This document shows positions 1,468 through 21,484 of a DNA stretch of 27,368 nucleotides, in pieces; positions within the stretch are counted from its first letter, which is position 1, and each line of letters starts with the position of its first letter. The notes beneath the pieces were generated by a model. The model ran no database searches. It had not been told where the DNA came from and saw nothing but the letters and a program-made list of their open reading frames with translations. Source of the DNA: a virus. The translations under genes and the position numbers were made by a program. The stretch lies in IMG/VR virus record IMGVR_UViG_3300027851_000111, positions 1 to 27,368 of that record. One strand, 5' to 3'.

Positions 1468-3816
1468 ATGGCAAAAAAACCACGCGAACCGAAGGCTGGC
1501 GAAAATACGGCGAAGAAAGACGAATTCGCCGAACTCCGTGAACGATTCACGAAACTGGCCGATATGTGGTCGGAAGACCGTGATCGGTACAAGAAGGACA
1601 CCCATTTTCTCTATGTGGATCACTGGCCAGATAATGTCCGCCGTTTGCGTGAAAGCAGCCTGAATCCACGCCTGTGCCTTGAAATTGACCAGTTAGGACA
1701 GTACCAGCGGCAGGTTATCAACGATTCACGGCAGAATCGCCCGCAGATCAAGGTACGCCCCGTGGATTCAGCGGCAGATATTGAAACCGCACGCATATAC
1801 GATGGTTTATGCCGCCATTGGCAGGAAGCTGGAAACGCCGATACCTGCTATGACGTTGCGCTGGAATGTTCGACTGGAGGCGGTTTCGGGTATTTCAGGA
1901 TTCTAAAGGATTACCTGCATGACGGCACTTTTGAGCAGGACTTCAAATTTTCCCCTGTCATCAATCCGCTGACGGTTTATTACGGCGAACACAAGGAGCT
2001 GGATGGGTCGGACGCCAGGGAATGCTGGATCGTCGAGGAAATACCAAAGGATGAGTACGAAGCCGAATTTCCTGATTTCAAGACAACCTCATGGGAAGGC
2101 GAAACATCGAAATATGGCGATTGGTGCGGAGAAAAAATCCGTATCTGTGAGCGATATGAAATTCGCCTTGAGCCACGCCTTATGCTGTTGCTGGAAGATG
2201 GTACGGTCACTTCACAGGAAGATTATCAGATCGCCATTGAGAACGGATTACAGCCTGCGGCAATCAAGGAGCAGCGCGAGATTCCGAAAAAATGCCTGTA
2301 CTGGTCGAAGTTCAATGGTTCAGAATATATCGAACCGCCACGCAAGGAACCGGGTGATCGGATACCCGTATTCCCGGTGTGGGGTAATGTACAGAACATC
2401 GACGGCAAGGTACGCCATGTTTCGATGATCCACAAGTCGAAGGATGCGCAACTGCTCTATGATTACGCGCAAACCGCTTTTGCCGAACGTGTTGGGCAGA
2501 CGCCGGAGGCATCATGGATTGCCGCCGAAGGACAGATTGACCCCTATAGCAAGGAATGGGATGGCAGTGAGCAGGTGGCGTCGAGAACATATAAACCTAT
2601 GTCACTAGACGGGCAGGTATTACCACCACCACAACGGAGTTCTCCGGTGGATATTCCTGCCGGATTCGCGCAGACCATGCAGCAAGCCGAGCATGGCGTA
2701 CAGACATCGCTTGGCATGTATTCCGCGTCGATTGGTCGCCGGGGTAATGCCACTAGTGGTGTGCAAGAACAGGAACAGGCGCGCAAGGGCGATGTATCGA
2801 GCTTTCACTATCACGACAATCTGGCGCGGGCGATACGTTCAGCCGGACGTTATCTGGTCTCCGCTGCGCCAAAGGTGCTGGATACCAAGCGCGTCGTCCG
2901 AATTCTTGGATTGGATGGCAAGGCAGAGAACATTCAGCTTGATCCTTCGCTGAAATCCGCCAGTGTCACGCAGGGAGCCAAGCAGATATTTAATATCGGC
3001 GTGGGCACTTACGATGTCGCCGTGGATGTCGGGCCAAGCTATCAGACTTCGCGCCAAGCGAGTGCCGCCGGAATGCTGGCGTTGGCGCAGGCTGATCCGA
3101 CCATGTGGCAGACGCATGGCGACCTGATAGCGGAATCGCAGGATTGGCCTGATGCGCAACGGTTTGCGCAGCGCTCCAAATTGTTGTTGCCGCCACAGAT
3201 TGCGCAGGCCGAGCAAAGTGGGGAATCGCCGGAAGTTCAGCAGGTGAAGGTTCAGGCGCAACAAGCCATACAGGAGCGCGATCAGATGCTACAGATGGCA
3301 CAGCAGGAAATGCAGAAGATGAGCGAAGAATTGACTGCCTTGAAAAACAAGGAAATGTCGAAGGCGGGTGAGATTGCGGTAAAACGCGATGAAGTCGCCA
3401 TCAAGGGATTCGAGGCCGAAACCGAGCGCATCAAGGTGATTGAAGAAGGTGCTATGTCGAAGATCGAGACGTTGCTGGCTGCACACGAAGCAAAGGTCAA
3501 GGAGTTGGTCGCTGCCGGACAAGAGTTATCCGCCGCCGGACAGGAATTGGCAGGAAATGGTGAAGATACTGATGATATTGCCAAACAGAATATGCAGCAG
3601 GAAATATCGAATCAGGTGATCGCAGCGGTTGAACAGTCCCACGCGGAAACCATGCAGGCTGTCGCGCTGATTGTGCAATCCATGCAGGAACAGCAATCCG
3701 CGTTGAATCAGCCGCGTATAAAAAAAGCACAGGCCATACGTCAACCTGACGGGAATTACACCATGACCAGTATTGACTCTCCAATGATGCAGGATATGCC
3801 GATGGAAGTCACCTGA
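1468..3816 (+). CDS. Portal protein, P22-type
   Basis: Forms the dodecameric ring at the capsid vertex through which DNA enters and leaves, and onto which terminase and later the neck proteins dock. At 782 residues it is close to the P22 portal (725). The N-terminal part (about 15-110) has the charged FTKLADMWSEDRDRY start and QLGQYQRQVINDSRQNRPQI, typical of this family. The middle contains the ECSTGGGFGYFRI strand-loop. Residues about 590-700 are a long Glu/Lys/Gln-rich helix, as in the C-terminal barrel region of P22-type portals. ATG 1468 has no strong Shine-Dalgarno site but lies just after the promoter at 1412-1439. The stop overlaps the next start (TGATG). Confidence 0.92.
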   Translation: MAKKPREPKAGENTAKKDEFAELRERFTKLADMWSEDRDRYKKDTHFLYVDHWPDNVRRLRESSLNPRLCLEIDQLGQYQRQVINDSRQNRPQIKVRPVDSAADIETARIYDGLCRHWQEAGNADTCYDVALECSTGGGFGYFRILKDYLHDGTFEQDFKFSPVINPLTVYYGEHKELDGSDARECWIVEEIPKDEYEAEFPDFKTTSWEGETSKYGDWCGEKIRICERYEIRLEPRLMLLLEDGTVTSQEDYQIAIENGLQPAAIKEQREIPKKCLYWSKFNGSEYIEPPRKEPGDRIPVFPVWGNVQNIDGKVRHVSMIHKSKDAQLLYDYAQTAFAERVGQTPEASWIAAEGQIDPYSKEWDGSEQVASRTYKPMSLDGQVLPPPQRSSPVDIPAGFAQTMQQAEHGVQTSLGMYSASIGRRGNATSGVQEQEQARKGDVSSFHYHDNLARAIRSAGRYLVSAAPKVLDTKRVVRILGLDGKAENIQLDPSLKSASVTQGAKQIFNIGVGTYDVAVDVGPSYQTSRQASAAGMLALAQADPTMWQTHGDLIAESQDWPDAQRFAQRSKLLLPPQIAQAEQSGESPEVQQVKVQAQQAIQERDQMLQMAQQEMQKMSEELTALKNKEMSKAGEIAVKRDEVAIKGFEAETERIKVIEEGAMSKIETLLAAHEAKVKELVAAGQELSAAGQELAGNGEDTDDIAKQNMQQEISNQVIAAVEQSHAETMQAVALIVQSMQEQQSALNQPRIKKAQAIRQPDGNYTMTSIDSPMMQDMPMEVT

Positions 3817-11937: not shown

Positions 11938-12791
11938 CCGTGCAAATTCAATTTGTGCCGCCGCGCATTCCATTTGTCGATCTCAAGACAGGCGAGATTA
12001 ACCGTCCTTGGGAAGATTTTCTGCGCAGTCTGTTTACGATTGTTGGCGGAAGCAGTGGCGTGATTGACCACGCGACATTGACAAATCTCAACAGCGCTGT
12101 ATACACCCATTTATCGGCTGTCAATGCAACAGACCTGATTGATGGTGGCGATACCTTGCTGCACTACCACGCATCAGATAGAAATAGCGCGAACTTCACT
12201 GGGACTAACTGGACAGACCTGACGGATGCTGGGGATTCTGTGCTGCATTTTCACGCCAGTGACCGGGCGAGAGCAAACCATACCGGAACGCAGGCGAAGA
12301 GCACGATCTTTGACTTTCCATCATTCCCTGTCTATCTGTTCAACCACTTCGCCGATGTCGGCAATGTCGGGACGGGGGAAGATGATCTTTATTCGGATAC
12401 GATTGCGGCGGGACAGCTTGCCAGCAATGGTGACCGATTGGAAATCGAATATGGCGGTACTTTCCTGAATCACGCCACAGCAACGAGACAGTTAAAGGTT
12501 TATTTTGGCGGTACGCAGATATTTGCCACTGGCGCACTAACCATCAGTGCTGCATCTGGATGGACTGTTTATGTCAGTATCATCCGTGTCAGCTCCAGCG
12601 TTGTGCGCTACATGGTGTCTATGAATACGATGAATGCAGCGCTGGCTGCTTACACGGCGGTTGGTGAAGTCACCGGATTGACACTGGCCAATACGAATGT
12701 TTTGAAAATAACTTCAGAATCCGCAGGAGTTGGGGCTGCCGACTCCGACATCGTAGCGAAACTTGGTTCCGTGGTGTACAGGCCGATATGA
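11934..12791 (+). CDS. Tail protein with HYH motifs
   Basis: 285 residues. The first 45 (VQIQFVPPRIPFVDLKTGEI, then RPWEDFLRSLF) are the conserved start of a podovirus tail protein that follows the gp10 gene. Residues about 60-120 contain two copies of a motif, DGGDTLLHYHASDR and DAGDSVLHFHASDR, each followed by AN.TGT. The C-terminal 150 residues are beta-rich and look like a small trimeric knob (NGDRLEIEYGGTFLNHATAT, YVSIIRVSSSVVRYMVSMN). It probably forms the tail needle or a fibre on the neck. Both ends overlap neighbours by four bases (ATGA). The exact role is inferred. Confidence 0.78.
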   Translation: MTVQIQFVPPRIPFVDLKTGEINRPWEDFLRSLFTIVGGSSGVIDHATLTNLNSAVYTHLSAVNATDLIDGGDTLLHYHASDRNSANFTGTNWTDLTDAGDSVLHFHASDRARANHTGTQAKSTIFDFPSFPVYLFNHFADVGNVGTGEDDLYSDTIAAGQLASNGDRLEIEYGGTFLNHATATRQLKVYFGGTQIFATGALTISAASGWTVYVSIIRVSSSVVRYMVSMNTMNAALAAYTAVGEVTGLTLANTNVLKITSESAGVGAADSDIVAKLGSVVYRPI

Positions 12792-13177
12792 AAATATGCG
12801 ATGAACCGCAGGAAGAAATTACCCGCGTGGCTTTTGAAGCATCGAGAGAGGTATTGCCAGAGGATTTCACTTTCGATGACATGCGGAAACAACTAGGACA
12901 TTGGCGCTTGCGCGGAATTTTTGATAATGATAAATGCGTAGGTGCGATTATGGATAACGAAGGCATTGTGCATATTTCTGTGCTGCCTGAAGCACGTAGG
13001 CAATGGGCTTCCAGAAACTTGCTGAAACAGGCGATTCATGGTGCTATGATTGATGGTAAGGTGAGCACGTTTGTATTCAATGGCGATAGAGAACGGGCGA
13101 AATTTGCTGAACGGCTAGGATTTATCCGCAAGACTGAAAACGATGAAGTAGCGAGGTATGACTATGTTATTCACTAA
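12788..13177 (+). CDS. GNAT-family acetyltransferase
   Basis: 129 residues. GNAT enzymes move an acetyl group from acetyl-CoA to an amine; the target here is unknown. Seen: RLRGIFDNDKCVGAIMDNEG (central strands), HISVLPEARRQWASRNLLKQ (strand 4 and the acetyl-CoA-binding helix, with a degenerate form of the usual R/Q-x-x-G-x-G/A loop), and FNGDRERAKFAERLGFIRKT, the classic C-terminal GNAT segment where A-x-x-F/L-x-x-x-G-F packs on CoA. The gene is locked into the tail operon by ATGA overlap upstream and a 20-base overlap downstream. Related GNAT genes occur in this place in other podoviruses. A capsid- or host-protein target is possible. Confidence 0.8.
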   Translation: MKICDEPQEEITRVAFEASREVLPEDFTFDDMRKQLGHWRLRGIFDNDKCVGAIMDNEGIVHISVLPEARRQWASRNLLKQAIHGAMIDGKVSTFVFNGDRERAKFAERLGFIRKTENDEVARYDYVIH

Positions 13178-14336
13178 AAGACAGGTAATGTATGTTAGCC
13201 GAGCGACAGCGAGAGCTATGTCGGCAGAAATGCCCATAGGCGATCCCTATGGTGGCCCCGCCTATGGTCAAAAAGAAGATTGGGGAACTGCCATATCCGT
13301 CGGCGGAAGTCTGCTTGGTGGTGTACTTTCAAACGATGCTTCATCCGATGCGGCGAATACGCAAGCGAGTGCGGCTAACTCAGCAGCGCAGCTTGAAGCC
13401 CAGGCCGCACAAAGGGCGCTGGAAGAACAGAAGCGCCAGTTTGATCTTTCCCGCTCCGATTTGGCTCCTTGGAAGAATACAGGGAATGCCGCATTAGATC
13501 AACTTTCACTAATGACAGGTATTTACCCGCAGAGCCAGAGGTTGTCTAGCCTGGGTTCTATGGGCGGAAGCATGGGTGATTACAAAGCTGTCAATTCTCC
13601 TGATTTGATAGATACATCAAAGGGGGGTGCATTTAATCCCAATGCTGATTTATACGCATCCAGTCCAGAATACAAGGCTGCCTATGATAAATTCATGGGA
13701 TGGCATCAGTCCCGTTATGGGAAATCGCCAAATCTTTCTTTGGGTTCCGATGAACAAATAGCAGAGAAACAGATTCAGGATTTTGGTTTCAATCTTGGAA
13801 ATTACAATACAAATAAAAAAACATCTTACGACAAGAATTTACAAGATAATTCTGCCGCTGCACAAGCCAAACAGGATGCTTATAGCTTTGCATCAACTGA
13901 CCCAAGCTATGCCTTCCGCCAATCAGAGGGAAACAAAGGCATTGAAGCCGCCTTGCGCGCACGTGGCATGTATGGCTCTGGCGGTGCACTGAAAGAACTG
14001 ACCGAATACAACTCGAATCTTGCCTCGACTGAATACGGCAATCAGTTTGGCCGTCTGTCGACATTGGCCGGATATGGGCAGAATGCGACGAATTCAGGTA
14101 ACACGCTCGGTGCACAGTATGCGGCCAATGCCGGGAATATCGGTATTAACAGCGCGGCCAACTCTGGCAATGCACTGCTGGCCGGTGCGAATGCCCGCGC
14201 ATCAGGGTACGTCAATAGCGCAAATAACTGGGGGAATACGCTAGGCAATGTTGGTGGCACATTGGCCGACTACTACAAGAGAAATGGCAGTGGCGGTAGT
14301 GGTTCTGAAAGCTATCCTTGGAATTATAATTGGTGA
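13158..14336 (+). CDS. Ejection (DNA-transfer) protein 1
   Basis: 392 residues from ATG 13158; ATG 13164 is also possible. Proteins in this slot are packed in the head and injected to form a conduit through the cell envelope. It has a Gly-rich start (GTAISVGGSLLGGVLSND), a long Ala/Gln helix (AANSAAQLEAQAAQRALEEQ), the DLAPWKNTG element and YSFASTDPSYAFRQSEGNKG with RARGMYGSGGALKELTEYNS, which are strongly conserved in podovirus DNA-transfer proteins. The last 100 residues are Asn/Gly/Ala repeats (NAGNIGINSAANSGNALLAG). Three such proteins in a row match the P22 gp7-gp20-gp16 layout, though sequence relation to P22 itself is not claimed. Confidence 0.82.
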   Translation: MTMLFTKRQVMYVSRATARAMSAEMPIGDPYGGPAYGQKEDWGTAISVGGSLLGGVLSNDASSDAANTQASAANSAAQLEAQAAQRALEEQKRQFDLSRSDLAPWKNTGNAALDQLSLMTGIYPQSQRLSSLGSMGGSMGDYKAVNSPDLIDTSKGGAFNPNADLYASSPEYKAAYDKFMGWHQSRYGKSPNLSLGSDEQIAEKQIQDFGFNLGNYNTNKKTSYDKNLQDNSAAAQAKQDAYSFASTDPSYAFRQSEGNKGIEAALRARGMYGSGGALKELTEYNSNLASTEYGNQFGRLSTLAGYGQNATNSGNTLGAQYAANAGNIGINSAANSGNALLAGANARASGYVNSANNWGNTLGNVGGTLADYYKRNGSGGSGSESYPWNYNW

Positions 14337-15560: not shown

Positions 15561-17057
15561 ATGGCTAAAACGCTTGTATTCGATACGCCGGAACCTTCCT
15601 CGACAGGGAGGCAGTTGGTATTTGATGATGCGTCAGATACTACGCCGCCACATGAAGAAATAACCACCCCGCTAAAGATGGGGGGTGATCGTCTGGCCGA
15701 TGATTTACGGGAAACCCTGCGCGGAACAGATTGGGCAACGCGGAATATCGCTGGTGCTGGAACTGCGCTTTCTGATATTTACCAAGGCGCAAAGCAAATG
15801 ATAGGTCTTGGCGACCAACAAGCGATTGAGTTAAACAAAGTCATTTCACAGGAAGCCCCTGTAGGCGCTTTTGCGGGGAATGCAGCATTGACTGCGCTAC
15901 CCTTTGGGATGGTAGGGAATAGCGTCAAAGGCGCTGCGGCAGTTGGCGCAGGGTATGGCGCATTACAGCCAGTAAGCGGAGAGCAAACGGCTGGAAACAT
16001 CCTTAAGGGGAAAGTCATCAATACTGGGCTTGGGGCTGCATCTGCTGCTGGTGGTCAGGTGCTTGCAAATAAAGCAAGTGGATATGTTAGCAAAAAACTA
16101 TCTGATCTAGCAGCAAAGCGTTCAAGGAACGCGCCGATAGACGCCACAATTAAGGAGGCACTCGATGCCGGATTTGCCATACCGCCTGGACAGGTTAACC
16201 CAAGTTTTGTTAATCGCCGATTGGAAAGTGCTGGCGGCAAGATTGCTACCCAACAGATGTTTTCTAGCAAGAATCAGCAAGTCATGGATGATCTTGCTCG
16301 CAGCGCAGCGAGTCTTGCGCCGGATTCTCCGATTACGCCGGAAACATTAAAGGCTGCGCGTGATGTTATCAAAAAACCATACCAAGATATTGCTGCACTC
16401 GGATTATCCGGCCCATTAGATGCTTTGGATGTCGCTCGGAATGAAGCAAATGCGGCTTGGAGAGAATATGGCAGACAAGGAACACGCGCTGCGCTCAATG
16501 ATTACAAAGCATTCAAGGCGGAAGCAAAAAATATAGAATCCGCTATCGAAAGGGCGCTAATAAAATCAAACAAGCCGCAGTTAATGAGGGCATTTCGTGA
16601 TGCACGTATTGCGCTTGCCAAGAATCACGACATAGAAACTGCACTCATTGAAGGCGGTGGCTCTGTTGATGCGCGTGCGATTGGCAGAATGTTCCAGCGC
16701 GGCGACAAAATGACAGATGAACTCAAGATCATGGGGTCTTTCGCCAATAACTTTCCGAAGATCGTTCAACCTGACAAAATGGTTGGGACGCCTGCGGCGA
16801 GTAATTTGACGCATGTCCTTTCTGTACTTGCCGGTGGTGGTGGATTTGCCGGTGGAGGAATCCCGGGCGCATTAGCTGGCGCGGCGGCTGTTGAAGGTGC
16901 GCCAGCGGTAGCACGGTCGATTATGTTGTCAAAACCAATGCAACAGCGTTTAATCAATAGCTATGCTCTTGGAACTCCTACCAAGACGCTTGCTGACCTC
17001 ATGCGCTATGCGCCCATTGGCGGCGCTGTAGGGAGTCTTGAAGCGTTCGGCCAATAG
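15561..17057 (+). CDS. Ejection protein 3
   Basis: 498 residues, starting two bases after the previous stop. The N-terminal 40 residues are polar and flexible (LVFDTPEPSS, LVFDDASDT). Residues about 90-180 are Gly/Ala-rich and hydrophobic (VGAFAGNAALTALPFGMVGN, AAAVGAGYGALQPVSG), fit for membrane insertion on ejection. The long middle is helical. A second Gly/Ala-rich hydrophobic stretch near 430-460 (VLAGGGGFAGGGIPGALAGA) follows. The end is IGGAVGSLEAFGQ. Length and composition fit the last large ejection protein. The last 108 bases overlap the minus-strand gene at 16950. Confidence 0.8.
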   Translation: MAKTLVFDTPEPSSTGRQLVFDDASDTTPPHEEITTPLKMGGDRLADDLRETLRGTDWATRNIAGAGTALSDIYQGAKQMIGLGDQQAIELNKVISQEAPVGAFAGNAALTALPFGMVGNSVKGAAAVGAGYGALQPVSGEQTAGNILKGKVINTGLGAASAAGGQVLANKASGYVSKKLSDLAAKRSRNAPIDATIKEALDAGFAIPPGQVNPSFVNRRLESAGGKIATQQMFSSKNQQVMDDLARSAASLAPDSPITPETLKAARDVIKKPYQDIAALGLSGPLDALDVARNEANAAWREYGRQGTRAALNDYKAFKAEAKNIESAIERALIKSNKPQLMRAFRDARIALAKNHDIETALIEGGGSVDARAIGRMFQRGDKMTDELKIMGSFANNFPKIVQPDKMVGTPAASNLTHVLSVLAGGGGFAGGGIPGALAGAAAVEGAPAVARSIMLSKPMQQRLINSYALGTPTKTLADLMRYAPIGGAVGSLEAFGQ

Positions 17058-17183
17058 CTGATCCTTTAACCAACACGGGGGCATATTGCGCGCTATGAAT
17101 AACCTGATACCAACACCGATTACGCCGAATAGAAATGCCGCTAACAGTGGGCCGAATGCCGCGCCTAATATCCAAGTGTCCAT
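16950..17183 (-). CDS. Small membrane protein, antisense moron candidate
   Basis: 77 residues, the only minus-strand gene in the late region. The first 42 codons fill the 163-base gap between the ejection gene and the tail fibre; the rest overlaps the ejection gene antisense. Residues 4-30 form a clear transmembrane helix (WILGAAFGPLLAAFLFGVIG), followed by RNMPPCWLKDQLLAERF, an amphipathic basic stretch. Small one-helix proteins ending in a W-L-K-x-x-L-L motif occur in related podoviruses. The place matches the P22 immI region, where sieA for superinfection exclusion is also read against the late genes. A TATAAT box lies six bases before the ATG, so the message may be leaderless. Function inferred. 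Confidence 0.6.
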   Translation of the reverse strand: MDTWILGAAFGPLLAAFLFGVIGVGIRLFIARNMPPCWLKDQLLAERFKTPYSAANGRIAHEVSKRLGRSSKSIAID

Positions 17184-17189
17184 TTCGGT

Positions 17190-17195
17190 ATTATA
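17190..17195 (-). promoter_or_regulatory. Candidate -10 box for the antisense membrane gene
   Basis: Read on the minus strand, TATAAT is followed by six bases and then ATG at 17183. This spacing would put the transcript start at or next to the start codon, giving a leaderless mRNA. No good -35 is seen at 16-18 bases, so the promoter is weak or needs an activator. Confidence 0.35.
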
Positions 17196-17220
17196 CTACA
17201 AACAATCAAGGTAAATAATC

Positions 17221-18855
17221 ATGGCAAATCTCACCCCGTCGCCAAAGTTTCAAGCATTCGACACAAACGGAGACCCGCTGAGTGGGGGGAAGCTATTTAC
17301 ATACCTTTCCGGTACATCCACGCCAGCGACTACCTACACAGACGCAGGTGGTGGAACGCCGAATGCGAATCCAGTGATTCTCGACTCTCGCGGTGAAGCC
17401 GATGTATGGCTACCAGTGGATGTCGCCTATCGCTTCACACTGAAAACCGCTGCTGATGTTTTGATCTGGACGGTGGACGGAATTTACGGCCAGCTAACGA
17501 CAAGCGGATTGCAAAACAACACCACCAACTGGGTCGTCGCCGGTGGTACAGCTGATGCGATTACCGCGACGTATTCGCCTGCCATTACCACTTTGGCGGA
17601 TGGGCAACTATGTTTCTTCCGCGCCTCAGCTGCAAATGCGACGACGACACCGAGTTTTTCGCCGAATGGACTGACTGCGCGGACAATCACGCTTGAGGGT
17701 GGCGCTGCTTTGCGTGCCGGCGAAATACCTGGCGCATTGGCCGAAGTTATCCTGCGCTACAACCTGGCGAACACGCGATGGGAATTGCTGAATCCTGCGT
17801 TTGCGCGGATCGGAGCCAACGCCGACATCACCTCAGCATCCGCGATGGCACCGTGGAGCAATGGCCTGATCAACGGCGGCTTCGAGCTTTGGCAGCGCGG
17901 AGCCGGTGGATCGGCTTCTATCGCCGTGGCGGCATCCAGTGCTGCTTACACGGCGGACAGATGGCGGCTGGAAACGCTGGCCAATCAAGCCTGCACGGTC
18001 AGCCAACAGGCGGGGCTGATAGATGGCTCGCAGTATTCGGGGCGGGTGCAGCGCAACTCAGGGCAAACCGGCGTCGGGCAACTGGTCTTCGAGCAACCGT
18101 TTGAGCTGGCGGAGATTGTCAAATACCGGGGCAAGACGATTACGGTCAGCTTCCGGGCTTCGACCGGAGCTAACTGGTCGCCTGCCAGCGGCACTTTGAA
18201 CGTAAGCATATTCTGCGGCACTGGCGCGGCGCGGGCGAGAGCCAATACTGGTTACACCGGCGAAACCACGCCGATGAACAATGCCACCAACATCGCCGCA
18301 GGCAGTGCCTCCGCCGCATACAGCATCACCAGCGCAGCCGTAATCCCGACCAATACCACGCAGATGTCACTCGTCTTGTCTTGGACGCCAACAGGCACGG
18401 CTGGCGCGAATGACTGGTTCCAGCTGGATGATGTGATGTGGTCGGTGGGCACTGGCGCGCAGCCCTTCGAGCGCATGAAGTTTTCAGCCGAACTGGAACT
18501 ATGCCGCCCATGGTACGAAAAGTCGTTCAACTACGCCACCGCCCCGGCGCAGAACGTGGGTGTCAATACGGGTGAAGCGAAAGGCATTACTGGCAAAGCC
18601 GGTGCAGTGAGCTCCGCCGCCCGCATCATCGTATCCTACAAGACGCCGAAACGTGTGGCTGCGGCAACTATCACCCTGTTCAATCCGGCGGCGGCCAATG
18701 GTGAAGTGAGAAATCAAATTACATCTGCTGATCTAACGGCAACGACTGCCGGAAATAATAATGAGAATGTGTTTTTGGTGACTGCCACAGGCGATGCAGG
18801 CGGCGCGGTTGGCGATTTGGTGTCAATCCACTGGACAGCCTCAGCGGAGCTATGA
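17221..18855 (+). CDS. Tail fibre or tailspike protein
   Basis: 544 residues; the receptor-binding protein. AAGG lies nine bases before ATG 17221. Residues 1-90 (NLTPSPKFQAFDTNGDPLSG, GGKLFTYLSGTSTPATTYTD) are a well-known N-terminal particle-binding domain of podovirus fibres and spikes. Residues about 100-200 are beta-rich. From about 210, LINGGFELWQRGAGGSASIA and TADRWRLETLANQ start a carbohydrate-binding-like beta sandwich ending near WFQLDDVMWSVGTGAQPFER; the motif PFERMKFSAELELCRPWYEK is common near the end of such fibres. The last 90 residues are a C-terminal beta knob. No catalytic depolymerase motif is evident, so it may only bind. The stop is one base from the next ATG. Confidence 0.85.
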   Translation: MANLTPSPKFQAFDTNGDPLSGGKLFTYLSGTSTPATTYTDAGGGTPNANPVILDSRGEADVWLPVDVAYRFTLKTAADVLIWTVDGIYGQLTTSGLQNNTTNWVVAGGTADAITATYSPAITTLADGQLCFFRASAANATTTPSFSPNGLTARTITLEGGAALRAGEIPGALAEVILRYNLANTRWELLNPAFARIGANADITSASAMAPWSNGLINGGFELWQRGAGGSASIAVAASSAAYTADRWRLETLANQACTVSQQAGLIDGSQYSGRVQRNSGQTGVGQLVFEQPFELAEIVKYRGKTITVSFRASTGANWSPASGTLNVSIFCGTGAARARANTGYTGETTPMNNATNIAAGSASAAYSITSAAVIPTNTTQMSLVLSWTPTGTAGANDWFQLDDVMWSVGTGAQPFERMKFSAELELCRPWYEKSFNYATAPAQNVGVNTGEAKGITGKAGAVSSAARIIVSYKTPKRVAAATITLFNPAAANGEVRNQITSADLTATTAGNNNENVFLVTATGDAGGAVGDLVSIHWTASAEL

Positions 18856-18856
18856 C

Positions 18857-19711
18857 ATGAAAAAACTACTAGCCTCACTTTGCTTCATCTGCGCACAGGC
18901 GCTGGCGTATTCGGAAATCCCCTGCCCAACGCCGCAATCCGGCGATGTGGTGGTTATCGTCGCCGGGCAGTCGAACGCAGGGAGTTACGGGGACGTGGCT
19001 TATTACGAGCCAAACAACGATGTCCAGTTTTACTTCGGCAACGGCAAGTGCTATCCGCTGGCTGATGCGCTCGCCGGTTTCCCTGTGCCGCCAATGCCGA
19101 ATTCAGGCGGCTCGATCTGGACACGGTTCGCATCCATTTATCACGCGGCCTATCCGTCCGGCGGGCGCATCATCTATGCCAACATCGCCCGCAACGGCGT
19201 GCCGATTCAGAACTGGCGCGCGCCAGATGGACAAGATTATCCGCGCATCCAGCAAGCCGTTACAGGGCTGGCCGCAAAGGGCTGGACAGACATCAGGGCA
19301 ATGCTGTTTATGGGCGGAGAAACAGACGCGATGGCTCCCTACGGCAGCGGTGCGCTGGCAACGAGTGCGCTCAATACGATGGTCGACGGTATCCGCGCCA
19401 ATGGCAACAGCTTCCCTGTTTTTGTTGGCATCGTCTCCACCTGCCGTTTCAAGACGGATGGAACGAGCGCTGGCACAGATTTTCAGGCTCTGTCAAGAAC
19501 AGAGGCGGCGTCGCGAATGGCGAAGCAGCATGAGATTCAGTCTGCCCTGATGAAAATAGAAGCACCAGTGAAAGGACTTTATGCTGGCGCGAATACCGAC
19601 TTGATCAGCCCGTCATCGCGTTGGGATAACTGCCACTTGAATGGCTACGGGCAATGGCTTGCCGCGCAGATGTGGTTCGATTTGCTGACGCAAAAAGGAC
19701 TGCTGCCGTGA
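18857..19711 (+). CDS. Secreted SGNH/SASA-type esterase
   Basis: 284 residues from ATG 18857, one base after the fibre stop. Probably removes acetyl or similar esters from a surface polysaccharide. Residues 1-17 are a signal peptide (KKLLASLCFICAQALA). The catalytic serine is S39 in VAGQSNAG (block I of the sialate O-acetylesterase group). MLFMGGETDAM (E155, D157) matches the Q-G-E-x-D block, and RWDNCHLNGYG supplies D257 and H260 of the triad. The length fits a single SASA domain. A Sec signal is unusual on a tail enzyme: the protein may act in the periplasm or on the cell's own surface rather than on the virion. Fold and catalytic residues are well supported; the role is not. Confidence 0.85.
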   Translation: MKKLLASLCFICAQALAYSEIPCPTPQSGDVVVIVAGQSNAGSYGDVAYYEPNNDVQFYFGNGKCYPLADALAGFPVPPMPNSGGSIWTRFASIYHAAYPSGGRIIYANIARNGVPIQNWRAPDGQDYPRIQQAVTGLAAKGWTDIRAMLFMGGETDAMAPYGSGALATSALNTMVDGIRANGNSFPVFVGIVSTCRFKTDGTSAGTDFQALSRTEAASRMAKQHEIQSALMKIEAPVKGLYAGANTDLISPSSRWDNCHLNGYGQWLAAQMWFDLLTQKGLLP

Positions 19712-19767: not shown

Positions 19768-20037
19768 GTGATACAAGACCGCCGCAACAACGCCGACCTG
19801 ATCGAAGCCATTGCCGACGCCGTTCGCGGTGAAATTTCACGTCTCACCGTGTCCGCTGAAATGCACTACGAACACCACGAATTTATCAGAGAGTGGATCG
19901 AGGAGCGCAAACGCAAGCGCGAATGGCGCGACAAGGTGAAGGCGCAGGTCGGCGGCTGGATGATTATCTCCATCCTCGGCGTGATCGGCACTGGCGCATG
20001 GACTACGTTTCAGTATCTGAGGGATCACCTGAAATGA
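19768..20037 (+). CDS. Holin-like small membrane protein
   Basis: 89 residues from GTG 19768, with a strong AAGGAG site seven bases before it. The N-terminal 60 residues are charged and helical (DRRNNADLIEAIADAVRGEI, EWIEERKRKREWRDKVKAQ). Residues 62-83 are a single transmembrane helix (GGWMIISILGVIGTGAW). Proteins with this layout and place, just before an endolysin, are often called holins or phage membrane proteins. The stop overlaps the endolysin start (ATGA), so they are coupled. It could be the holin or a regulator of it; the gene at 20372 is the competing candidate. Confidence 0.75.
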   Translation: MIQDRRNNADLIEAIADAVRGEISRLTVSAEMHYEHHEFIREWIEERKRKREWRDKVKAQVGGWMIISILGVIGTGAWTTFQYLRDHLK

Positions 20038-20375
20038 GCCTCCGCCAGACACAATCCAAATTCGCGGCGCTTGTCCCGCGCCTGATCGACAAGGCCATCG
20101 AACTTGGCTTTGAGGTCACACTCGGCGATGCCTTTCGAGACCCGCGCGTATTCGGACAGATCGGCGAGAGAATGGGCTATGGACACGCCAGCAGCGCCCA
20201 CAAGCAGCGCATGGCCATTGACTTGAACCTGTTCAAGGACGGCACGTTTATGGCCGACACAGAGGCGCACAGGCCGCTTGGCGAGTGGTGGGAGAAGCAG
20301 CACCCGCTGGCGCGATGGGGCGGTCGCTTTAAGGACGGCAATCATTACTCTTTTGAAGTGGGAGGCATCAAGTGA
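20034..20375 (+). CDS. Endolysin, M15-family zinc peptidase
   Basis: 113 residues from ATG 20034 (ATGA overlap decides this start). Cuts peptide bonds in the stem peptide of peptidoglycan, as the phage T5 L-alanyl-D-glutamate peptidase does. Zinc ligands are H56 and D63 in SSAHKQRMAIDLNLF and H104 in DGNHYSFE. D101 lies three residues before H104, as the catalytic Asp does before the last ligand in T5 endolysin. EWWEKQHPLARWGGRF is the usual segment before the last ligand. No signal peptide, so it needs a holin to reach the wall. It lies in the lysis block with the holin-like and spanin genes. Confidence 0.92.
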   Translation: MSLRQTQSKFAALVPRLIDKAIELGFEVTLGDAFRDPRVFGQIGERMGYGHASSAHKQRMAIDLNLFKDGTFMADTEAHRPLGEWWEKQHPLARWGGRFKDGNHYSFEVGGIK

Positions 20376-20605
20376 TAAAACTCATCAAGCAGATCATCCA
20401 TGACTGCCTGACTGGCCGGGACGGCATCACCTATGATCCGGCAAGAATCTATCTTGCCATGGCGGTCAATGTATTCCTTGCAGCAACCATCATGGACGCC
20501 GTGCATAACATCAAATTCGACCCGCAAGCATTTGGCATCGGCTTCGGTGCCTTGCTGGCTGGTGGTGGGCTTGGTGTATCACTCAAGGCGGGGACGGAGC
20601 CATGA
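20372..20605 (+). CDS. Second holin-like membrane protein
   Basis: 77 residues from GTG 20372, overlapping the endolysin stop as GTGA. It has two hydrophobic segments: 24-43 (ARIYLAMAVNVFLAATIMD) and 53-71 (AFGIGFGALLAGGGLGVSL), with the ending LKAGTEP. The pattern FDPQAFGIGFGALLAGGG and a KAGTEP-like end is very widespread in phage lysis blocks and usually labelled holin or hypothetical membrane protein. With two helices it resembles class II holins. It could be the main holin, with the gene at 19768 as a regulator, or the reverse. The stop overlaps the next ATG. Confidence 0.8.
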   Translation: MIKLIKQIIHDCLTGRDGITYDPARIYLAMAVNVFLAATIMDAVHNIKFDPQAFGIGFGALLAGGGLGVSLKAGTEP

Positions 20606-20985
20606 ACCCGGATAGCAAAAAAAAATTGCGCATTTCCGATGACGGCTTAACGCAATTCTTTTGCCCAGGATGCCTGCATCGGCACGCAATCCAAGTTGGA
20701 GAAGGCGAGCACCCTCACTGGGCTTGGAATGGCGACATGGATAAGCCAACGTTCACGCCGTCGATCCTCGTTACTGGTAGAAAATTTACCCCAAAAGGAC
20801 GGGCTGACTATGAGGCATGGTATGCAGCCGGGTGTCCAAAAAATGAAGACGGAAGCCTCCATGAGTTTGAGGGTGCTGAATCACGTTGTCATAGTTTTAT
20901 CACCAATGGGCAAATCCAATTCTTGAGCGATTGCACTCATGGATTAGCAGGCCAAACCGTACCGCTGCCTTATCTGGATAACTGA
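20602..20985 (+). CDS. DUF6527-like protein, probable metal binding
   Basis: 127 residues, cytoplasmic by composition. FFCPGCLHRHAIQ gives a Cys-x2-Cys pair at residues 21 and 24 with nearby His. WAWNGDMDKPTFTPSILVTG and SRCHSFITNGQIQFLSDCTH with GLAGQTVPLP are the core motifs of the DUF6527 family, small proteins common in phages near lysis genes. Additional Cys residues (AAGCPKNEDGS) could complete a zinc site. The biochemical role of the family is not known to me. The start overlaps the previous stop and the stop is one base from the Rz start, so it is part of the lysis operon. Confidence 0.82.
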   Translation: MNPDSKKKLRISDDGLTQFFCPGCLHRHAIQVGEGEHPHWAWNGDMDKPTFTPSILVTGRKFTPKGRADYEAWYAAGCPKNEDGSLHEFEGAESRCHSFITNGQIQFLSDCTHGLAGQTVPLPYLDN

Positions 20986-20986
20986 C

Positions 20987-21484
20987 ATGAACCTAGACCT
21001 CGTTCGCGCCATCCCCACGCCCTACATGCTGCTCGGCATCGCCGCGCTGGTTGCCGCGTCAATGGGCTTTGGCTATGTCAAGGGCATGAACCACGAAGCC
21101 GACCGGCACACCGAGTACGTGAGGCAAGTCACCGAAGCAAACGCCAGACTGGAGGCAGAAAATGCACGCATCAAACGAGAGACCAAACGCATCAACAAAG
21201 AGACCACGGCAGGCTGGGCTGCTGCTGTCGATCATCTGCGCCGCCACCCTGTCAGCGTGCGGCGGACAGACTGTGGTGCAGCAAAAAGCGCCGCCGTATC
21301 CGCCAGTGCCGGACGCCCTGAACCGGATGCCGCTGAACGCGGACTTGGTGCCGGACTCAGCACGCCCATTGAGATACCGGCAGAGCAGTGCGAGGCCAGA
21401 CTGAACGCGGCTGCACGAGATGCCGCGCAGGTCATGTGGTTGCTGGATTGGGCGGCTGCGCAACGAGAGGCTACGGAGGATTGA
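20987..21484 (+). CDS. Rz: Inner-membrane spanin subunit Rz
   Basis: 165 residues. The i-spanin links the inner membrane to Rz1 in the outer membrane and fuses the two at the end of lysis. Residues about 13-32 form the N-terminal membrane anchor (YMLLGIAALVAASMGFGYVK). The periplasmic part starts with a coiled coil (EANARLEAENARIKRETKRI), as in all Rz proteins. The C-terminal half is Ala-rich with ARLNAAARDAAQVMWLLDWA. The Rz1 gene lies entirely inside it in the +1 frame, the arrangement known from lambda-type spanins in its fully nested form. The length is close to lambda Rz (153). Confidence 0.9.
   Translation: MNLDLVRAIPTPYMLLGIAALVAASMGFGYVKGMNHEADRHTEYVRQVTEANARLEAENARIKRETKRINKETTAGWAAAVDHLRRHPVSVRRTDCGAAKSAAVSASAGRPEPDAAERGLGAGLSTPIEIPAEQCEARLNAAARDAAQVMWLLDWAAAQREATED
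21162..21404 (+). CDS. Rz1: Outer-membrane spanin lipoprotein Rz1, nested in Rz
   Basis: 80 residues wholly inside Rz in another frame. A strong GGAGG lies six bases before ATG 21162. Residues 14-33 are a lipoprotein signal: basic KRPRQ, a hydrophobic LLLSIICAATL core and the lipobox LSAC with C33 as the lipidated residue. The mature protein (48 residues) is Pro-rich (KAPPYPPVPDALNRMP), a hallmark of Rz1 proteins, which bind Rz across the periplasm. The dual coding explains why the overlapping part of Rz is unusually Ala/Arg-rich. Confidence 0.9.
   Translation: MHASNERPNASTKRPRQAGLLLSIICAATLSACGGQTVVQQKAPPYPPVPDALNRMPLNADLVPDSARPLRYRQSSARPD

Follow-up and report, generated by a model that had tools for sequence, protein, structure and literature searches.

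A real, new and unannotated family of membrane microproteins is widespread in P22-like podophages, encoded antisense to the late genes in the slot that separates the last ejection gene from the tail fibre gene. The family was recognised through one gene in the window, by which we mean the whole 27,368-nucleotide stretch of viral DNA analysed here. This gene is almost certainly a genuine protein gene, and its message is very probably leaderless, with a transcription start predicted at the A of its ATG codon. The best reading of its function, to which we assign a probability of roughly 45%, is that of a SieA-like superinfection exclusion microprotein of the inner membrane, which would act on incoming ejection proteins.

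The microprotein gene and its surroundings

The window belongs to a P22-type podophage, as its portal (1468-3816) matches Pfam P22_portal (E=1.9e-139) and its coat protein matches Pfam P22_CoatProtein (E=1.6e-22). The microprotein gene (P0001) occupies 16950-17183 on the minus strand, with its ATG at 17183, and encodes a 77-aa product, MDTWILGAAFGPLLAAFLFGVIGVGIRLFIARNMPPCWLKDQLLAERFKTPYSAANGRIAHEVSKRLGRSSKSIAID. It faces the last ejection-type gene (15561-17057, plus strand, 498 aa), the positional counterpart of P22 gene 16. This gene was assigned by position and by the likeness of its product to the 'putative internal protein C' of Xanthomonas phage PBR31 (31.5% identity, E=5e-24), not by similarity to P22 gp16. 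On its other side, the microprotein gene stands back-to-back with the tail fibre or tailspike gene (17221-18855, plus strand, 544 aa), whose product has a conserved N-terminal domain and matches a PHROG tail fiber protein (E=1.2e-28).

The original prediction placed the gene between the ejection gene and the fibre gene, with a span of 16950-17195. The slot holds, but the reading frame lies partly outside the gap: the true intergenic gap is 17058-17220, and the last 108 nt of the gene (16950-17057, minus strand) lie opposite the 3' end of the ejection gene. This 3' part is mostly a C-terminal extension that has no counterpart in the relatives aligned. Likewise, the frame itself is 16950-17183, while position 17195 is the outer edge of a TATAAT hexamer and not the end of the frame. 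The PBR31 member (L086:2067-2417, minus strand) is 116 aa long and has a C-terminal extension that runs for about 170 nt antisense into its ejection gene; such extensions are present in the window and PBR31 members, unlike most relatives.

Other genes of the region include a GNAT acetyltransferase gene (12788-13177, plus strand) amid the tail and ejection genes, with a PBR31 acetyltransferase (orf028) at the same position. Directly after the tail fibre, a SASA-type carbohydrate esterase domain is encoded at 18794-19711 on the plus strand (Pfam E=5.4e-07), possibly a receptor deacetylase. A DUF6527 protein gene (20602-20985, plus strand) is flanked by endolysin-like and spanin-like genes.

A slot-bound family

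The window protein is the most diverged member of its family. Direct searches with it found no match (tblastn against phages and a pattern search of viral contigs), and the ejection gene as bait found none either. The family was reached by using the conserved N-terminal fibre domain to compare slots, followed by profile searches. The slot comparison revealed a similar small minus-strand membrane protein in locus L054, PBR31 (L086), Rhodoferax phage P26218 (L089) and Manatee Spring phage MW202557 (L091). A profile built from four seeds (window, L054, PBR31 and P26218) and run on 15,469 ORFs recovered the MW202557 protein as an independent fifth member, in the slot (E=3.7e-9). A profile search of 26,667 ORFs from 207 loci gave 15 matches, every one on the minus strand, with the next match at E=1.9. 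Searching viral contigs with the microprotein alone yielded further loci, and in the first scan 17 of 17 lay in the same slot. In total, 32 distinct proteins are known, and leave-one-out profiles also recover other diverged members. The arrangement is the same in all of them: the gene is antisense, its 3' end meets the 3' end of the last ejection-type gene, and its 5' end is back-to-back with the fibre gene. For example, the neighbour of member L217 matches a DNA ejection protein (E=2.5e-38). A broken frame in the slot of related phages, named beforehand as a refuting result, was looked for and not found; the frame in these relatives is under purifying selection.

The family has so far escaped description. 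For the members tried, Pfam, PHROGs and NCBIfam gave no significant match, and a Foldseek search against viral models returned nothing (best E 4.6), as expected for one helix. Neither a pattern scan of prophages in bacterial genomes nor plasmids yielded a family member. No prior report was found in the literature searched, which left out most subscription journals. The gene is unannotated in PBR31 and P26218, while in MW202557 (L227 29095-29229, minus strand) a 44-aa hypothetical protein is annotated on the late strand over the antisense microprotein gene; this annotation is probably a mis-call.

Protein features and selection

Members are as a rule 48-77 aa long (about 50-60), with the PBR31 protein as the exception. 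The family consensus is MxWhhAhhh[KR]PhxALILFGLICLPxRLAVQ[RK]WMPEG[RK]hKRxLL, in which P12 and L43 are invariant and K40 is nearly so (alignment A7). Every member has one strongly hydrophobic N-terminal stretch, an N-terminal net charge of 0 or -1 and a basic C-terminal tail with a net charge of +4 to +13. For the window protein, the expectation of one strong transmembrane helix was borne out: the best 19-residue Kyte-Doolittle mean is 2.38, and an AF2 model of moderate confidence (mean pLDDT 71.5 overall, 82-86 at residues 11-30) has a helix at residues 3-33. By this model, hydropathy and the alignment, the predicted membrane helix with its invariant Pro12 is encoded at 17085-17177 on the minus strand. 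It is followed by a conserved post-membrane segment, residues 35-46 (17046-17081, minus strand), for which the family consensus is M-P-x-G-[RK]-h-K-R-x-L-L and the window has PPCWLKDQLLAE. By the positive-inside rule, the N-terminus would lie outside and the C-terminus inside.

Outside the overlap with the ejection gene, pairs within the P26218 group give a dN/dS of 0.06-0.30 and four further pairwise comparisons give 0.07-0.13, and nucleotide changes concentrate at third codon positions of the minus frame. Together, these two patterns indicate real coding.

A leaderless start

In the window, TATAAT lies at 17190-17195 on the minus strand, six bases from the ATG across the spacer ACCGAA, exactly as originally described. 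This predicted -10 box covers positions -12 to -7 from the start codon, which is the geometry of a leaderless message. The comparison across the family points in the same direction. Of 29 distinct upstream regions, 11 have a match to TATAAT at five or six of six positions with a spacing of exactly 6 nt from the start codon, while at any other offset (0-29) such hexamers occur at most once among the 29. Local shuffles placed the hexamer at 6 nt in a mean of 0.15 cases (maximum 3 in 5000), and it stands at that distance before none of the 889 further ATG ORFs that the member loci contain, and before none of 150 in the window. The hexamers seen are TATAAT, TATACT, TATAGT, TACAAT and TAGAAT, and the spacers vary (ACCGAA, CAGCGA, TGGGGG, GAAAAG, TGTGGG, GAGTAG, GAGTTG, TTCGGG and TGGCCC). 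Conservation of the hexamer beside a changing six-base spacer speaks for a promoter under selection, with the restriction that three of the 11 (L206, L209 and L212) have an identical spacer and do not count as independent cases.

None of the 11 regions with the hexamer has a Shine-Dalgarno sequence, which is found in 5 of the remaining 18, so the family appears to start translation both ways. A strong -10 box at 6 nt is absent from these 18 regions. Neither a conserved -35 element nor an extended -10 was found upstream of family genes. The box is scattered over a poorly resolved tree that supports neither a single origin nor several.

A further feature of these regions is a late-strand hairpin, usually with a T-run, that abuts the -10 box in eight of the 11 (L206, L054, L209, L212, L244, L218, L221 and L249). 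It just precedes the fibre gene, is mostly terminator-like and is absent in the window.

Carriers and other occupants of the slot

A P22 portal was identified in 18 of 30 carrier records searched, many of which are fragments. An integrase scores above the family cut-off in 12 of the 30, PBR31 included, and none lies within the 27 kb of the window. P26218, MW202557 and their relatives have no integrase, and P26218 and MW202557 have their own DNA polymerase. Some carriers are temperate (PBR31 and others with integrases), while the P26218/MW202557 group is apparently virulent, so a purely lysogen-based reading is not established. Among records of at least 35 kb, an integrase match is found in 6 of 6 with the leaderless box (that of L240 being below the cut-off) versus 3 of 10 others, a comparison confounded by clade.

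Slots that lack the family are not always empty. With a gap of 90-450 nt, another antisense membrane ORF is present in 11 of 41 distinct family-free slots, against 1.0 expected (the shuffle mean; maximum 3 in 30 shuffles). Antisense single-helix ORFs unrelated to the family occur in L129, L131, L134, L135, L187, L188, L192 and L113. Those of L129 and L131, minus-strand ORFs whose starts lie about 95-100 nt ahead of the fibre gene, form a homologous pair with dN 0.20 versus dS 0.62. The L134/L135 pair is unconvincing (dN 0.33, dS 0.40) and overlaps the ejection gene to a greater extent. In L113, CATAAT stands 6 nt before a TTG start.

Possible functions

From the computed gene, membrane helix, slot, purifying selection and leaderless geometry, we infer expression, topology, exclusion and target as follows. 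The microprotein would be the single-pass inner-membrane product of a 'reverse moron', and the most likely transcript of the window gene would be a leaderless message made from a -10-only promoter of its own. Once inserted, the helix would have its short N-terminus, which is neutral or acidic, on the outer side and its basic tail in the cytoplasm. Located in the inner membrane of a cell that is infected or lysogenic, the protein may then interfere with the conduit that the ejection proteins of incoming related phages form, and DNA entry would be blocked.

The exclusion reading is preferred because a membrane microprotein is strictly bound to this slot in related phages and P22 sieA occupies the same slot and strand. 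Also counted in its favour are the integrases of several carriers and the unrelated antisense membrane ORFs of family-free slots, which recall the diversity of SieA types. Against it stands the lack of similarity to SieA or HK97 gp15. In the apparently virulent P26218/MW202557 group, moreover, prophage-borne exclusion cannot be the role, and any exclusion would need to take effect during a single infection cycle. The explanation as a whole is further weakened by the 18 of 29 upstream regions without a strong -10 box, the missing -35 conservation, the divergence of the window protein and the absence of an integrase from the window.

Other readings must be weighed against this one, beginning with those in which the protein has no role. 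Antisense ORFs of 77 aa are numerous on the minus strand of the window, and length alone does not set this one above chance. It is conservation that does so: a profile built without the window ORF recovers it at E=4.5e-9 among 575 window ORFs (next 0.34), and its slot, strand, start and -10 position are as in its relatives, with a TATAAT-like hexamer at the same distance. A chance ORF is therefore hardly credible. If only the antisense RNA or the DNA mattered, to regulate the ejection transcript at its 3' end or through the terminator, the frame would be incidental; the hairpin at the -10 box in eight of 11 leaderless members, most with a T-run, suits such a role. This reading is nevertheless strongly disfavoured by the low dN/dS of the minus frame where no plus-strand gene overlaps, and by profile matches at the protein level across very diverged DNA.

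Among protein functions, the main rival to exclusion is a microprotein that modifies the host membrane without acting on incoming phage DNA, either in early takeover or in lysogenic conversion, by binding an inner-membrane enzyme, a transporter or a respiratory complex. Such a role is possible and would come naturally to the apparently virulent carriers as an early host-directed function. It also fits the position opposite the structural genes in PBR31, P26218 and MW202557, and small inner-membrane phage proteins can bind membrane complexes, as PfsE does with PilC (PMC8764522). It leaves unexplained, however, why members are found only beside ejection genes and why unrelated membrane ORFs occur in the same slot. 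An antiholin or a pinholin-like peptide read from the opposite strand is unlikely. The small size, the N-terminal transmembrane segment and a very weak PHROG holin match (E=0.35, the only one) would suit a lysis regulator, but the gene is no part of the lysis cassettes, and its strand is not the one expressed late. The annotated holin, lysozyme and spanin of PBR31 and the peptidoglycan-degrading gene of P26218 and MW202557 all lie on the late strand, and the endolysin- and spanin-like genes of the window lie apart at 19893-21484. Less probable still is a helper in the virion or in DNA delivery, working in partnership with the ejection protein or the fibre. The strict linkage to both genes and the presence in virulent and temperate carriers speak for this idea, while the antisense orientation takes the gene out of late expression and most phages with the same fibre domain lack the microprotein.

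Building on the exclusion reading, a more general proposal can be offered tentatively. P22-like podophages may reserve an antisense locus, placed between the ejection and the receptor-binding genes, for single-helix microproteins of unrelated families, which would have filled it repeatedly; the largest of these families would be expressed from a conserved leaderless -10-only promoter. All would be minimal exclusion proteins adapted to the ejection proteins encoded next to them, with target and exclusion gene travelling together.

The findings add an unannotated protein family to the well-studied P22-type phages, provide a rare comparative case of a leaderless phage gene and suggest a general role for the sieA slot as a locus of antisense exclusion genes. 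SieA is some 160 aa long, and how it contacts the ejection conduit has yet to be worked out; a single helix of 50 aa, if the exclusion reading is true, would be a much smaller handle on the block to DNA entry. They also highlight that gene callers miss this class of microprotein, which is unannotated in two named phages and overwritten in a third.

Comparison with known systems

The closest positional parallel is P22 SieA. In P22 (NC_002371), gene 16 ends at 13313, sieA lies at 13336-13830 on the minus strand and tailspike gene 9 starts at 16204, so the analogy of slot and strand drawn in the original prediction is upheld, and the family is carried by phages with a P22 portal. All sieA genes examined are located between 16 and 9 (PMC10883804). 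SieA is an inner-membrane protein and the microprotein a predicted membrane protein, and the expectation that it would be much smaller is correct (77 aa, one helix). SieA has 162-164 aa and three transmembrane segments, with an FxRYPxEAxxFNK motif in the cytoplasm, and relatives of it have been reported from P22-like prophages of enterobacteria only. It blocks the injection of DNA and is escaped through mutations in gp16 and gp20. Its annotated promoter (13861-13891) and CDS start (13830) imply a leadered message, unlike that predicted for the window microprotein. Homology to SieA was rejected, with an hhalign probability of 0.2%, no FxRYPxEAxxFNK motif and one helix versus three.

HK97 gp15 is similar in kind. 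It is a 62-aa moron product, a predicted membrane protein encoded beside the tape measure gene, and is listed as a DNA-injection blocker that phages escape through changes in the tail tube or tape measure (PMC10883804). It differs in being encoded on the late strand of a siphophage and shows no profile similarity; homology was rejected at an hhalign probability of 2.1% over 14 columns. PfsE of Pseudomonas phage Pf is also a small inner-membrane protein that mediates superinfection exclusion, by binding PilC (PMC8764522). The likeness drawn here is one of description, and PfsE differs in coming from a filamentous phage, acting on PilC and having a cytoplasmic N-terminus.

As for expression, a TA-like signal about 12 bp upstream of the start codon is a mark of leaderless genes in bacteria (PMC3160421). 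The microprotein genes with the box resemble these in having a TATAAT-like hexamer at that distance and no Shine-Dalgarno sequence. They differ in that no -35 was found and that diverged phages have kept the box in front of one microprotein gene. Finally, like the 'reverse moron' gp23 of HK97, an antisense moron in a late gene cluster, the microprotein gene is an extra gene amid late genes with its own -10 box and variable presence, being found in 10 and absent from 163 of the fibre-anchored loci measured.
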